DNA from: Candidatus Amesbacteria bacterium RIFCSPLOWO2_01_FULL_48_25
GTDB taxonomy: Bacteria; Patescibacteriota; Microgenomatia; CAZETR01; Amesbacteraceae
DNA length: 33,072 bases
Assembly: GCA_001773695.1 (NCBI GenBank)
Contig: MEXN01000001.1
Coordinates: 8,831 to 41,902, forward strand
Reading direction: 5' to 3'
Below are positions 12,458 to 17,321 of the stretch, one piece after another (within the stretch, counting starts at the first letter, position 1; the number at the start of each line of letters is the position of its first letter). A model generated the notes under the pieces. The model saw only the letters and a program-made list of their open reading frames with translations, searched no databases and had not been told where the DNA came from. Position numbers and translations under genes: made by a program.

Positions 12458-13035
12458 GCTACTATCGATTCTTTTATTTGGTCAAATACTTTTTGGCCCA
12501 CGACCTTTTTAGATACCAGCTCCTCTATCTTTCCATACGGCCGCCCGGAAATGATTTTACCTGCCGTCACCGGCCCTATCCCAATCAACCCCTCCAACTC
12601 CGCCTGCGAAGCCATGTTTATATTGATTTTTGAATTTGGAGTTTGATTTGACATTTGAGTTTTGTCATTTGAATTTATTGACGGAACATATATCTTTTGC
12701 CCATCCACCACTCTGGCTGCTCTATTAAGATTTATTTCTATCCACTTTGTATCAGATTCCACAGACAATCCACCGGCCGCCTCCAACGCCTCCTCAACCC
12801 GAGCGCCAAATTTCAAAGCATAGACTCCAGGCTTTACCACTGATCCCGAAACATCTACCGCTATAGCAGCAGAATTTGTAGCTTCACCTCCACTCAATTC
12901 GGTCTGGGCAGACAATATTTCCACCTCAGGTTGATTCTGCAACTTCCACCAACCCACACCCAAACCAATTAAAATCAAGCTCGCAAGGCCCAAAACTACG
13001 GGCCAATATTTCGCCTGCCACCCGCTAGGATCCAT
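12451..13035 (-). CDS. comEA: ComEA-like competence DNA-binding protein
   Basis: 194 residues: an N-terminal membrane anchor (residues 10-30, YWPVVLGLASLILIGLGVGW), an SLBB-type domain (VDVSGSVVKPGVYALKFGARV ... DGQKIYVPS, about 60-118), and a C-terminal helix-hairpin-helix pair (ININMASQAELEGLIGIGPVTAGKII) that binds DNA. The linker NSNDKTQMSNQTPNSK is coded by an AT-rich repetitive tract (about 12620-12672) of the same style as the window's intergenic repeats. It overlaps leuS by 11 bp and comEC by 7 bp. Role: capture of double-stranded DNA at the membrane and handover to ComEC. Confidence 0.92.
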   Translation of the reverse strand: MDPSGWQAKYWPVVLGLASLILIGLGVGWWKLQNQPEVEILSAQTELSGGEATNSAAIAVDVSGSVVKPGVYALKFGARVEEALEAAGGLSVESDTKWIEINLNRAARVVDGQKIYVPSINSNDKTQMSNQTPNSKININMASQAELEGLIGIGPVTAGKIISGRPYGKIEELVSKKVVGQKVFDQIKESIVAW

Positions 13036-15994
13036 TAGTGACTAAATTTAAAATCTTTCCCGGCACAAATACAATCCCGTACTTAGTACCAATCACATGT
13101 TTAGCCACGTTTCCAATCTTCAAAGCCTCCTCGATCACATACTCCAGCTCTTCTGCTCTTGCACTCTCCAGCTCTATTCTCCCCCTCATCTTCCCATTTA
13201 CCTGCACTACCAGCACAACCATCCTGCTCCCCACCAGCCTCGTATCAAACTCGGGCCATTTTTGGTTATGCACAGACTCAAACTTATCAGCACTCCCCCG
13301 CAACTGCTGATAAAGTTCCTCGGCCATATACGGAGCATACGGTGCCATGACCAAAGCCATCTTCCTCCACACATCTGCCCAATTTCCGCCCGCCCCCGTC
13401 TTGAGCGCCACCTCCAAACTATTCAAGCTCTCCATCATCGCCGCCACCGCCGTGTTAAAAGACATGGTCTCCAAATCTTTCGTCACCCGATCCACCAATT
13501 TATTGGCAATCACATCCGCTTCCCCCACCTCGCCCCGCAAATCGCGCGTCTTACCAAACAAATTCCATACCCGGTTCAAAAATCGCTTCACTCCCTCCAC
13601 CCCAGCCGTACTCCAAGCCTTAGTAGCATCCAGTGGCCCCATAAACATCTCATACATCCTCAACGTATCCGCTCCGAATTTATCTACTACCTCGGTCGGG
13701 TTGACCACATTTCCCCACCTCTTACTCATTTTCCGATTGTCCTCTCCCAATACATGCCCGTTTTTATAAAATTTAGCAAACGGCTCATCCATCTTCACCA
13801 AACCCAAATCAAAAAGCACCTTAGTCATAAACCGAGCATAAATCAAGTGTGTCGTGGCGTGATCCCCCCCCACATACAAATCTACCGGCATCCACTCCTC
13901 CACTTTCTTTGTATCCCAGATCTTTTTTTTGTTATGCGAATCGCAAAACCGCAAAAAATACCACGTCGAGTCCACAAAGGTATCCATGGTATCCACCTCC
14001 CGTCTCCCCACTCCTCCACATTTCGGACAAACTACATCTTTCTGGAAACTTTTAGATCTAGTAATTGGCGACTGGCCGGTCGGCTTGAAATCCACATCGG
14101 TTGGCAGTAAGACCGGTAATTGATCTTCCGGAACCGGATTCCATTTGCATATATCGCAAAATATCATCGGTATCGGCGCCCCCCAGTACCTCTGCCGGGA
14201 AATCAGCCAATCCCGCAGGTGATATGTCACCTCTCTCGTCCCCAACCCGTCTTTAACCATCCTCTCTCTGGCTTCAACCGAGTGCACCCCGCCATACTCA
14301 CCTGAATTTATCAGCTCTCCCTCACCTTCATAAGGCTCAAGCCCCAACATCAAAAAGTCAGCCTGTTCCTTCCATCTCACTTCTCCCTTCAAAGTCATTG
14401 ATCTCTTTTTTTCTTCATAAATAGCACTTCGAGACAAACACAACACCCCAACTCCCCACAACTTTCTTTCTTGAACCATATCGGCCCACCTGCTTTCTAA
14501 TACTTCAGGATTAGACGACTCCAACTTAACAATGTAGCCCTTTTCATTCACCTCTATCGCAGATATATCTACATGTATATCTCCCCGACTCGAGTCCTTT
14601 ATCGCCTGAAAATAGTATTTAGTATTTTTTCCCTTGGGCCACAGAGTCTCAACCTCATAGCCCAAACTAACAAACTGACTTCTCCACCAATCAACATCTT
14701 CTTTCAATATAAGTAAGTCAATATCTTCGTTCTCCCTAAACTCCTCACCTACTTGTGCAGCCACTGCCCAACCCCCACTCAATATCAACCTTTTGTCATT
14801 TTTATTACCCAGCTCAAACAACTCTTTGATTGCTTTGCGATTACGTTCTTGCCTCCCTTTATAGTAATTCCTCGCATTCTCGTCCACGTACACTCTCTGT
14901 GGCAACACTACCGGCAATACATCGATACTATGCTTCCCAGCAAACTGAAAGTCCCGCTCGTCATGGGCCGGCACGCCCATGACCACTCCGGTACCCACGT
15001 CTTTAAGCACATAATCTGCCACATACACGGGTAATTTCTCGCCATTCGCTGGATTAATAGCCATCAAATCTGTTTTCACTCCCGTTTTTTGCTTATTATC
15101 TTTTTTCCTCTCCTCTTCTGATCTATCCAGAGCTTCTTTGACATACTCCCCAATGTCTAACGGCATCTTCCAACCCTGCGTTTTCCAGTCTCGAGCCACT
15201 TCCGGAGCCACCACCACAAACGCCACCCCAAAAATAGTATCTAACCTTGTGGTAAACACCTCAGGTTTAATTGTGAATTGTGAATTGTGAATTGTGAATT
15301 GAACCCTAGCTCCTTCTTTTCTTCCTATCCAGTTCCTCTGCATGGCTTTCGTCGAAGCCGGCCAGTCAATTCTATCCAGCCCTTCAAGCAACCTATCTGC
15401 GTACTTTGTAATCGCCAAAAACCATTGCTCCATCTCCTTCAAAACCACCGGAGTGTCGCACCGCTCGCACCTGCCTTCTACTACTTGTTCATTTGCCAAG
15501 ACAGTCTCGCACGACGGGCACCAGTTAACCACAGCACTAGCCCGATACGCCAGTCCCTTCTCATACAGCTGGATAAACAGCCACTGGGTCCATCTATAAT
15601 AATCCGGGCTACTTGTGTCTATCTCCCGTTCCCAATCATAAGAAAGTTCCCCTGCTGCCATTTGCCTCTTAAAGTTCTGGATATTTGCGTGTGTTGACTT
15701 ATCGGGATGCACTCCATGCTTGATTGCATAATTTTCTGCTGGCAAGCCAAAAGCATCCCACCCCATTGGGTGCAGCACTTGATGTCCCGACATTCTCCAA
15801 TACCGGGCCACAATGTCAGTTGCCACATATCCCAGCATATGACCCACATGCAATCCAGAAGCCGATGGGTAAGGAAACATGTCCAAAATATATCTCTTGC
15901 GGCCACCCTTCGGATCGCCAGTCGCGTATAACGAGTTTTTATCCCATACCTTAGGCCACTTTTTCTCGAGAGACTTCGGGTCGTATTTCTCCAT
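13025..15994 (-). CDS. leuS: Leucyl-tRNA synthetase with inserted nucleotidyltransferase domain
   Basis: 989 residues from the ATG at 15994 (MEKYDPKSLEKKW); an 8-nt gap to a TAAAAT box supports this start over upstream ATGs. Class I signatures: HVGH (49-52), a zinc-type CPSC/CERC pair, the editing threonine-rich site EVFTTRLDT (about 245-253), VMGVPAHDERDF (339-349), SRQRYWG (599-605) and KMSKRWGN (755-762). Right after the editing-site helix (DVLPVVLPQ) about 190 residues (366-554) replace a normally short loop. They form a nucleotidyltransferase domain with LSGGWAV, ENEDIDLLI, GDIHVDISAIE and a late LCLSRSAIYEEKKRS. The editing domain then resumes at ELINSGEYGG. An AATTGTG repeat also codes part of residues 231-243. 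It leads the comEA-comEC operon. Confidence 0.96.
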   Translation of the reverse strand: MEKYDPKSLEKKWPKVWDKNSLYATGDPKGGRKRYILDMFPYPSASGLHVGHMLGYVATDIVARYWRMSGHQVLHPMGWDAFGLPAENYAIKHGVHPDKSTHANIQNFKRQMAAGELSYDWEREIDTSSPDYYRWTQWLFIQLYEKGLAYRASAVVNWCPSCETVLANEQVVEGRCERCDTPVVLKEMEQWFLAITKYADRLLEGLDRIDWPASTKAMQRNWIGRKEGARVQFTIHNSQFTIKPEVFTTRLDTIFGVAFVVVAPEVARDWKTQGWKMPLDIGEYVKEALDRSEEERKKDNKQKTGVKTDLMAINPANGEKLPVYVADYVLKDVGTGVVMGVPAHDERDFQFAGKHSIDVLPVVLPQRVYVDENARNYYKGRQERNRKAIKELFELGNKNDKRLILSGGWAVAAQVGEEFRENEDIDLLILKEDVDWWRSQFVSLGYEVETLWPKGKNTKYYFQAIKDSSRGDIHVDISAIEVNEKGYIVKLESSNPEVLESRWADMVQERKLWGVGVLCLSRSAIYEEKKRSMTLKGEVRWKEQADFLMLGLEPYEGEGELINSGEYGGVHSVEARERMVKDGLGTREVTYHLRDWLISRQRYWGAPIPMIFCDICKWNPVPEDQLPVLLPTDVDFKPTGQSPITRSKSFQKDVVCPKCGGVGRREVDTMDTFVDSTWYFLRFCDSHNKKKIWDTKKVEEWMPVDLYVGGDHATTHLIYARFMTKVLFDLGLVKMDEPFAKFYKNGHVLGEDNRKMSKRWGNVVNPTEVVDKFGADTLRMYEMFMGPLDATKAWSTAGVEGVKRFLNRVWNLFGKTRDLRGEVGEADVIANKLVDRVTKDLETMSFNTAVAAMMESLNSLEVALKTGAGGNWADVWRKMALVMAPYAPYMAEELYQQLRGSADKFESVHNQKWPEFDTRLVGSRMVVLVVQVNGKMRGRIELESARAEELEYVIEEALKIGNVAKHVIGTKYGIVFVPGKILNLVTNGS
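14333..14899 (-). other. Nucleotidyltransferase domain inside leuS
   Basis: This part of leuS encodes a fold like the LinB/ANT(2'')-type nucleotidyltransferases: GG-W (residues 407-409 of LeuRS), D-x-D (424, 426) after a G-x5-R-x-x-x-D spacing, and a third acidic residue (D476) in RGDIHVDISAIEVNEKG. All three catalytic carboxylates are present, so the domain could bind metal and NTP. No canonical LeuRS has it at this position as far as I know. Confidence 0.75.
15269..15301. repeat. AATTGTG tandem repeat within leuS
   Basis: Four tandem copies of AATTGTG (15269-15296) plus a partial fifth. On the coding strand they give an in-frame QFTIHNSQFTI-like stretch just before the editing motif. Confidence 0.75.
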
Positions 15995-16002
15995 TACACA
16001 CA

Positions 16003-16031
16003 ATTTTAAATCTCCCAATCCCATATCGCAA
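16003..16031 (-). promoter_or_regulatory. leuS operon promoter
   Basis: On the minus strand TTGCGA (16031-16026), a 17-nt spacer and TAAAAT (16008-16003) lie 8 nt upstream of the leuS ATG. This predicts a leaderless or 1-2 nt leader mRNA. Confidence 0.5.
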
Positions 16032-16343
16032 CCTCCAGCCACAAGTCAAATCTAATCCTATAGCCGCTTCTTCCGAAATTCCCTTCCTTGTGTCTCAAAA
16101 CTTGTCATTTTTGTTTCATTCTCCAATCATCAATCCAATTGGTCAATTTCTCAAACTGGCAATCAAAACAATAAATCGCCAACGTTAATTTCGCTTTACC
16201 CTGTAAGCAAATCACGTTTCATATAAAAACACCAAAAGAATCCATACCAAGATTATCCACAATCCTGTTGACAATTAGTTACATCGTACTATTATCAGCA
16301 TATAATATCTAATAATTAATATAATTTATATAATTTAGCTTCA

Positions 16344-16355: not shown

Positions 16356-17321
16356 GTGGCAACTGATTATACCGAATCCCTTCGCTCTAAATTCGCCCAA
16401 TTCCTGGGCCCACTGGGCGTTAGCCATAATACTTATAAAAACTACCTTTCGGATCTGCTTCACTTTTTCGACTGGTACGCTTCACTTGGTCTCACTCTTT
16501 CCCCCGAAAACATAGCCGATTCTCTCACCCCCACCCAGCTAGCCCACTATCGTGATCATCTCATCTCGCACTCGCCAGTAACAACCGCCAACCGCCGCCT
16601 TTCTACCCTCCGTCGGTTCTGCCAATTCGCCTTTTCCCAAAACATCTTGCCCTCCGACCCTTCTGCCAACCTAAGCAACATCTCCCAACCCCTAACCGCC
16701 CAGGAAGCCATCCTCACCCGCTTCCGTTCTTTTCTCAAATCAGAAGGGGCCTCGATCGTCACCATAAAAAATTATCTGTCCGATGCTAGATACTTCATGC
16801 AGTTCTCCCCTCAGCTCGACCCCGACCTTTCGGCATACACTTTGCACCTCCAAGCCACCTTCTCCCCCTCCACCGCATTACGCCGATTGTCCTCGGCAAA
16901 AAAACTTGTATACTTTCTCCAATCCCAACCTCCCCTTCCGCCCCTGGAAACACCTCCTCCGGCACCGGAGCTAGTCCCCACACCGATCACTCCAGAGACC
17001 TATTTGTCAGAAGTGGTACCAGAAGACCTACCTCCCCCACCTCCCCCCATTCCTTCATCATCCAACCAAACTCTCCTCAATCAACTGGATCTCTCTTTTC
17101 CCCCTGAGATTTCCCACGAGACCTCTATCCCGCCTTCACCACCCCCATCTCCCGTTAGTCCGAATAGAACAACGAGTTATTCCACCAGCCGTCTCTCCAC
17201 CATTATCATTATCGTCACTCTAGTCGGCTGTATCCTGACGGCGATAGCCGCTTATCTCCTCGCCCGCTCCGAACCCGGTCAAATTATCGACCCCTCCTCC
17301 ACCTCGCAACCCCTGCCGTAA
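16356..17321 (+). CDS. Membrane-anchored double Xer core-binding-domain protein (no catalytic domain)
   Basis: 321 residues starting at GTG. Residues 1-107 match the N-terminal SAM-like core-binding domain of XerC/XerD recombinases (TYKNYLSDLLHFFDWY, ANRRLSTLRRFCQFAF). Residues 115-190 repeat it (TIKNYLSDARYFMQF, STALRRLSSAKKLVYFL). The catalytic R-H-R-H-Y domain is absent. Instead come a 75-residue Pro-rich linker (191-267) and a membrane helix (282-303, TIIIIVTLVGCILTAIAAYLL) with a short tail. The arrangement suggests a cytoplasmic DNA-binding module tethered to the membrane rather than a recombinase. What DNA it binds is unknown. Confidence 0.75.
   Translation: MATDYTESLRSKFAQFLGPLGVSHNTYKNYLSDLLHFFDWYASLGLTLSPENIADSLTPTQLAHYRDHLISHSPVTTANRRLSTLRRFCQFAFSQNILPSDPSANLSNISQPLTAQEAILTRFRSFLKSEGASIVTIKNYLSDARYFMQFSPQLDPDLSAYTLHLQATFSPSTALRRLSSAKKLVYFLQSQPPLPPLETPPPAPELVPTPITPETYLSEVVPEDLPPPPPPIPSSSNQTLLNQLDLSFPPEISHETSIPPSPPPSPVSPNRTTSYSTSRLSTIIIIVTLVGCILTAIAAYLLARSEPGQIIDPSSTSQPLP

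Follow-up and report, generated by a model that had tools for sequence, protein, structure and literature searches.

A predicted complete nucleotidyltransferase domain inserted in the editing domain of a leucyl-tRNA synthetase from Candidatus Amesbacteria

The sole leucyl-tRNA synthetase (LeuRS) of Candidatus Amesbacteria bacterium RIFCSPLOWO2_01_FULL_48_25 carries, in a loop of its CP1 editing domain, a 188-residue insert that is, by sequence matches and a structure model, a complete minimal nucleotidyltransferase (NTase) of the PF10706 type. The host protein reads through the insert in a single open frame, and in many genomes of the phylum the same loop, or one of three other LeuRS sites, has received other whole enzymes. 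Judging from the sequence and the model, we put the probability that the insert is a catalytically working NTase module of the Lnu/ANT(2'') kind at about 0.6. The DNA analyzed is a stretch of 33,072 nucleotides of contig MEXN01000001.1, hereafter called the window, and positions are those of the window.

The host gene, leuS, occupies positions 13025-16042 on the minus strand. Its frame runs without interruption over 1005 codons from a GTG; the ATG at 15994 (MEKYDP...) is the likelier start. The product scored 908.9 bits against the NCBIfam model leuS_bact (equivalog cut-off, 548.4), and its alignment with E. coli LeuRS was collinear apart from the insert. The HIGH motif, in the form HVGH (15839-15850), and the KMSKS motif, in the form KMSKR also seen in 12 of the relatives compared (13718-13732), are present. 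The part of the CP1 editing domain preceding the insert comprises residues 236-382 (14897-15337), and PF13603 matched residues 236-385 with an E-value of 4.8e-50. Alignment with E. coli LeuRS located the T-rich motif of the editing site, TTRLDT (15236-15253; E. coli T247-T252), and the editing-site aspartate D364 within AHDERD (14951-14953; E. coli D345). D364 lies 18 residues before the last host loop residue ahead of the insert. On the other side, LeuRS sequence restarts with the loop end YEGEG (residues 571-575; 14318-14332), and the same motif stands before NSG in insert-free LeuRSs such as L029 and L035. An earlier note on this DNA had claimed an uninterrupted frame and two intact host halves; the open codons, the leuS_bact score, and the editing motifs bear this out, and the host outside the insert is, as far as its sequence tells, intact. 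Since this is the only LeuRS copy in a 939-kb genome with a completeness of 99.9%, aminoacylation and editing activity would be expected of it.

A full-length structure model was computed from LeuRS rows only, because free-standing NTases were scattered over the length of LeuRS when they were added to the alignment. The model matched known LeuRS structures (T. thermophilus, 1.1e-72). Its confidence was good on either side of the insert, with a pLDDT below 50 in the insert itself, and the LeuRS body is predicted to fold normally. Next to leuS, positions 16356-17321 of the plus strand encode a protein with a phage-integrase N-terminal SAM-like domain. No catalytic domain was found in this protein, which continues with a proline-rich stretch and what may be a membrane segment.

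The insert consists of LeuRS residues 383-570 (14333-14896, minus strand). It begins after Q382 (E. coli A363) and stops before Y571 (E. coli L375), so that its counterpart in E. coli is residues 364-374; the loop segment as a whole measures 243 aa in the window LeuRS versus 45-85 aa in most relatives. The coordinates first proposed, 14333-14899, were thus correct within one codon. The size proposed with them, about 190 residues, also stood, but the roughly 20 residues ascribed to E. coli at this place are about 11 in the alignment.

The claim that the insert resembles LinB/ANT(2'')-like NTases was supported by both sequence and fold. The earlier note had named the lack of an NTase match as a refutation; the insert alone matched Pfam PF10706 at E = 1e-8 (35.9 bits; gathering cut-off, 21). 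Two further matches, to NTP_transf_5 (2.6e-6) and AbiEii (19.4 bits; cut-off, 22.5), fell under their cut-offs. In a sequence search of the PDB, the insert found LnuA at E = 0.0018, and a three-row profile of it reached ANT(2'')-Ia at 2.4e-9. Membership in a named resistance family was not indicated by the NCBIfam Lnu/ANT equivalogs (Lnu(D), 24.0 versus 325 bits; ANT(2'')-Ia, 14.5 versus 350 bits). An AlphaFold2 (AF2) model of the insert, with eight distant relatives in the alignment, had a pLDDT of 75.7 and a pTM of 0.75. Foldseek matched this model to LnuA (1.6e-8; TM-score by target, 0.76) and ANT(2'')-Ia (1.9e-6; 0.72), and more weakly to the MenT1 toxin, polymerase-type NTases, and the CCA-adding enzyme. 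Taken from sequence and model, the NTase identity of the insert is beyond chance.

The putative active site is retained in full. The GGW motif corresponds to residues 423-425 (14768-14776), of which both glycines (insert G42 and G43) are invariant in two alignments of relatives. The DxD motif, with the predicted metal ligands D440 and D442 (insert D59 and D61; 14717-14725), and the third catalytic aspartate, D492 in HVDIS (insert D111; 14567-14569), are likewise invariant in the relatives' alignment. A late conserved aspartate, D562 (insert D181; 14357-14359), lies at the end of the NTase domain in KEQAD, where relatives have DLHD, and is invariant in three alignments. All eight residues invariant among the sampled relatives (G42, G43, G51, R55, D59, D61, D111, and D181) are kept in the insert, at an overall identity to relatives of 19-28% (19-24% within the alignment that defines the eight). 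The GG, DxD (EDIDLL), and third Asp (HVDIS) picked out earlier by reading the sequence are therefore all in place, and the three acidic residues, for which free variation had been proposed as a refutation, are invariant in standalone homologs. Given the PF10706 and Lnu/ANT matches, the fold, and the eight retained residues, the domain is complete by sequence and model, and its active site looks intact and competent.

An NTase at this site is rare. Searches of 374 class genomes, 380 phylum genomes, and the genome_contigs collection turned up no other LeuRS whose loop holds an NTase, and the order's 13 other genomes likewise lacked the insert. E. coli LeuRS and nine full-length LeuRSs of viral-contig records had no large insert at this site. 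PF10706 matched inside LeuRS-size frames twice among the 380 phylum genomes, in the window LeuRS and in that of genome G376; a further long-frame match, in G580, was rejected as an insertion since by eye it looks like a CCA-adding-type enzyme. No close relative of the insert was found in IMG/VR, in phages, or in the 84,980 genomes of genome_contigs, and a plasmid search returned one Lnu(A) at E = 9e-3. A broad seven-row NTase alignment was too diverse for scanning; an alignment-based scan gave eight distant NTases, none reported within LeuRS. The insert is the only PF10706 copy in its genome. The nearest LeuRS, L007, is 59% identical; it is free of inserts, and its CP1 is trimmed. The GC content of the insert is 0.42, versus 0.46-0.53 in equal-length stretches of its LeuRS host, with other window genes going down to 0.40; the low value is consistent with the capture of a foreign gene. 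Nothing notable was seen in a search for boundary repeats. The simplest reading is that the NTase was captured along this species' own branch. NTase-in-loop LeuRS is known from one genome, and the divergence of the insert may predate its insertion.

LeuRS frame lengths were surveyed in 145 phylum genomes with a short probe, and long frames were then aligned to a LeuRS profile; an in-frame stretch of at least 85 residues was counted as an insert. At least 32 of the 145 genomes (22%), 31 of them besides the window's, had a LeuRS with large in-frame inserts, and four sites recurred: after residues 256, 385, 632, and 711 in window numbering. Pfam was run on 41 inserts, a set that takes in some from class genomes, and assigned 18 to Nudix, 11 to Ser_hydrolase (RBBP9-type), and two each to HAD, Ham1, and NTase; a further group matched no family. 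Site 385, the loop of the window NTase, otherwise held a Nudix domain in 17 cases, an unnamed W-D-G domain in six, a serine hydrolase in one (L124), and another domain in one (L054). The unnamed domain (L011, L012, L053, L107, L109, and L131) measures about 105-120 aa, has no Pfam match, and by eye shares the motif SW-D--G----V-F-DG. Among the 18 Nudix inserts, the Nudix box was strict in 15 and near to the consensus in three, and most serine hydrolase inserts retained a GxSxG-type nucleophile motif and a His, which suggests that the enzymes inserted in LeuRS generally stay catalytic. On a LeuRS tree, the site-385 states required 18 changes; for the insert-free state, well-supported branches force 17. 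This implies many gains, losses, or transfers. The recurrence had escaped the earlier note. The exact case is unique in the sample, but the loop has repeatedly taken whole enzymes across the phylum, so the window NTase belongs to a broader phenomenon.

One LeuRS, that of G376 (L103:1897-5649), reached an open frame of 1795 aa with five inserted domains at four sites: HAD, Ham1-type, Nudix, Ham1-type, and NTase. A 418-aa insert of this protein was divided into domains by eye. Its NTase lies after residue 711 (window numbering) and has no detectable direct similarity to the window NTase (BLAST E = 0.22). Another insert at site 711, in L117, was considered as a decayed NTase and rejected; the NTase-like layout was not significant, profile comparison was unsupportive, and no NTase motif was recognizable. 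In the opposite direction of size, six LeuRSs of only 718-774 aa (L007, L016, L060, L061, L062, and L063), five of them from the window's own family, had a strongly trimmed CP1 and retained TTRxD/ET and the editing Asp.

LeuRS is a favored but not a sole host of such inserts. In frames above 600 aa, serine hydrolase matches were almost all in LeuRS; the others inspected were lipase-like secreted proteins and one valyl-tRNA synthetase (ValRS). This ValRS, of G380 (L158:1865-5455, about 1197 aa), by eye contains HAD, serine hydrolase, and Nudix inserts, and a serine hydrolase and a Nudix domain also appear to be inserted in the LeuRS that this genome encodes (L159). When 13 LeuRS Nudix inserts were built into a profile, 18 LeuRS-size or truncated-LeuRS frames outranked every standalone Nudix protein of the phylum draw. 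Thirteen of these match by construction, and the five outside the profile were also above the best standalone protein, which suggests LeuRS-dedicated Nudix lineages. A PF10706-type NTase was also found within the RNase H endonuclease domain of UvrC in G417 (L079:1-2340), which is the reason for not calling LeuRS the only host. Standalone fusions were seen as well, of a serine hydrolase with an NTase (L065 in G021, 355 aa) and, by eye, of an acetyltransferase with an NTase (L041 in G041, 338 aa). Four viral contigs of 56-158 kb (L150, L152, L153, and L154) encode LeuRS-like proteins of 420-447 aa without the whole CP1 region.

In our preferred reading, a CP1 surface loop of the cell's only LeuRS has taken up, in frame, a complete minimal NTase with the Pol-beta fold (PF10706, Lnu-ANT(2'')-like). 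LeuRS would continue to charge tRNA-Leu, while the NTase would fold independently out of the loop, its ends being near enough to each other for splicing into the loop. By two-metal catalysis on its three aspartates, the domain would move an NMP from an NTP to a hydroxyl-bearing acceptor. As the relatives of known chemistry modify small molecules, the acceptor is more likely a small molecule than tRNA by analogy. LeuRS would then act as an insertion-tolerant chassis that guarantees the expression of a passenger enzyme.

This proposal has to be weighed against an NTase that serves LeuRS itself, acting on the 3' end of tRNA-Leu (repair or protective nucleotide addition), on the aminoacyl-adenylate, or on a misactivated amino acid, or else inactivating LeuRS-directed nucleotide antibiotics at their target. 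Several observations fit such a role. The insertion lies 18 residues past the editing Asp, probably in the loop that carries I4ae in archaeal and eukaryotic LeuRS, I4ae being the one insertion of CP1 that lies near this pocket (PMC7229842), and this proximity makes coupling to editing or to LeuRS-binding inhibitors possible. LeuRS is the dominant host of inserted serine hydrolases, its Nudix set outscores all standalone Nudix proteins of the phylum draw, MenT1 and the CCA-adding enzyme are among the fold relatives, and agrocin 84 is a known LeuRS-directed agent (entry 3zgz). However, the nearest relatives in sequence and fold act on small antibiotics rather than RNA, and no single LeuRS reaction covers the chemistries of Nudix, HAD, esterase-like, Ham1, and NTase inserts; we regard a LeuRS-linked NTase as an unlikely alternative. 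Rather unlikely, too, is that the domain is catalytically idle in vivo and that the permissive loop retains it for a structural or tRNA-contacting role, or simply tolerates it. The loop does accept many unrelated inserts or none, as the 18 changes on the tree attest; small CP1 insertions such as I4ae are structural in role (PMC7229842); and the L117 insert, NTase-like in layout and devoid of NTase motifs, indicates that decay may occur. Against idleness stand the eight of eight invariant residues in the window NTase and the catalytic motifs retained in most other inserted enzymes.

Two further explanations fare worse. An assembly or binning artefact joining two unrelated genes could account for the deviating GC content of the insert and for the lack of the combination in a second genome, and the genome is in 10 contigs. 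Yet both junctions are exactly in frame with intact host loop ends and 1005 open codons, the contig is 165 kb long in a genome with 99.9% completeness and 0.01 contamination, and the same loop bears other inserts in many independent genomes, so an artefact is very improbable. Capture by LeuRS of a mobile or self-splicing element (intein-like or homing-endonuclease-like) or of a toxin-antitoxin NTase (AbiEii/MenT) would agree with the recurrent sites, the patchy distribution, the weak AbiEii score, and the MenT1 fold match. These readings were rejected and are hardly credible: Pfam found no splicing or nuclease domain in the 1005-aa protein, the AbiEii score is under its cut-off, boundary repeats are not notable, one site is common to unrelated enzyme families, and no antitoxin is among the annotated adjacent genes (comEA-, comEC-, metallo-beta-lactamase-, and integrase-N-like). 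The preferred reading remains a working NTase module of the Lnu/ANT(2'') kind.

Compared with known systems, the insert is like LnuA and ANT(2'')-Ia (PF10706; PDB 4fo1 and 5cfu) in fold, in the order GG, DxD, third Asp, in size, and in the C-terminal part. Those proteins are free-standing antibiotic modifiers, whereas the insert lies within LeuRS and scores 24 bits against equivalog cut-offs of 300-350. I4ae shares the location in CP1, probably down to the loop that follows the editing Asp, but it is small and structural and helps to shape the editing pocket (PMC7229842), whereas the insert is a whole enzyme. The Nudix, RBBP9-type serine hydrolase, HAD, and Ham1 inserts of the phylum are likewise whole in-frame enzymes, in the same loop (Nudix and one serine hydrolase) or at three other sites; they belong to other families, and among the sampled genomes an NTase occurs at this site in the window genome only. 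The LeuRS of G376 also has a PF10706-type NTase, but at site 711 and beside HAD, Ham1-type, and Nudix inserts. An isoleucyl-tRNA synthetase with an N-acetyltransferase domain (NCBIfam NF040702, judged by model name alone) is another class Ia synthetase with an extra enzyme domain, differing in both synthetase and enzyme. Searches of the accessible full-text literature, outside which most subscription journals lie, turned up no account of LeuRS with NTase or Nudix insertions, and recurrent enzyme insertions in LeuRS apparently form an undescribed class.

Few enzymes are as conserved as the aminoacyl-tRNA synthetases. About one-fifth of the sampled genomes of this phylum hold whole enzymes in the single, essential, open frame of LeuRS, which amounts to a natural experiment in domain insertion. 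It is conceivable, although doubtful at present, that LeuRS and sometimes ValRS repeatedly gain, at fixed loops, enzyme modules acting on the substrates, products, or inhibitors of the synthetase, the NTase being one of them, for example in protection of the tRNA 3' end or inactivation, at its target, of a LeuRS-directed nucleotide antibiotic. If modules do act on LeuRS substrates or inhibitors, quality control or drug defense would have a second tier. If they only ride along, reduced genomes would be using essential enzymes as carriers to secure the expression of passenger genes.
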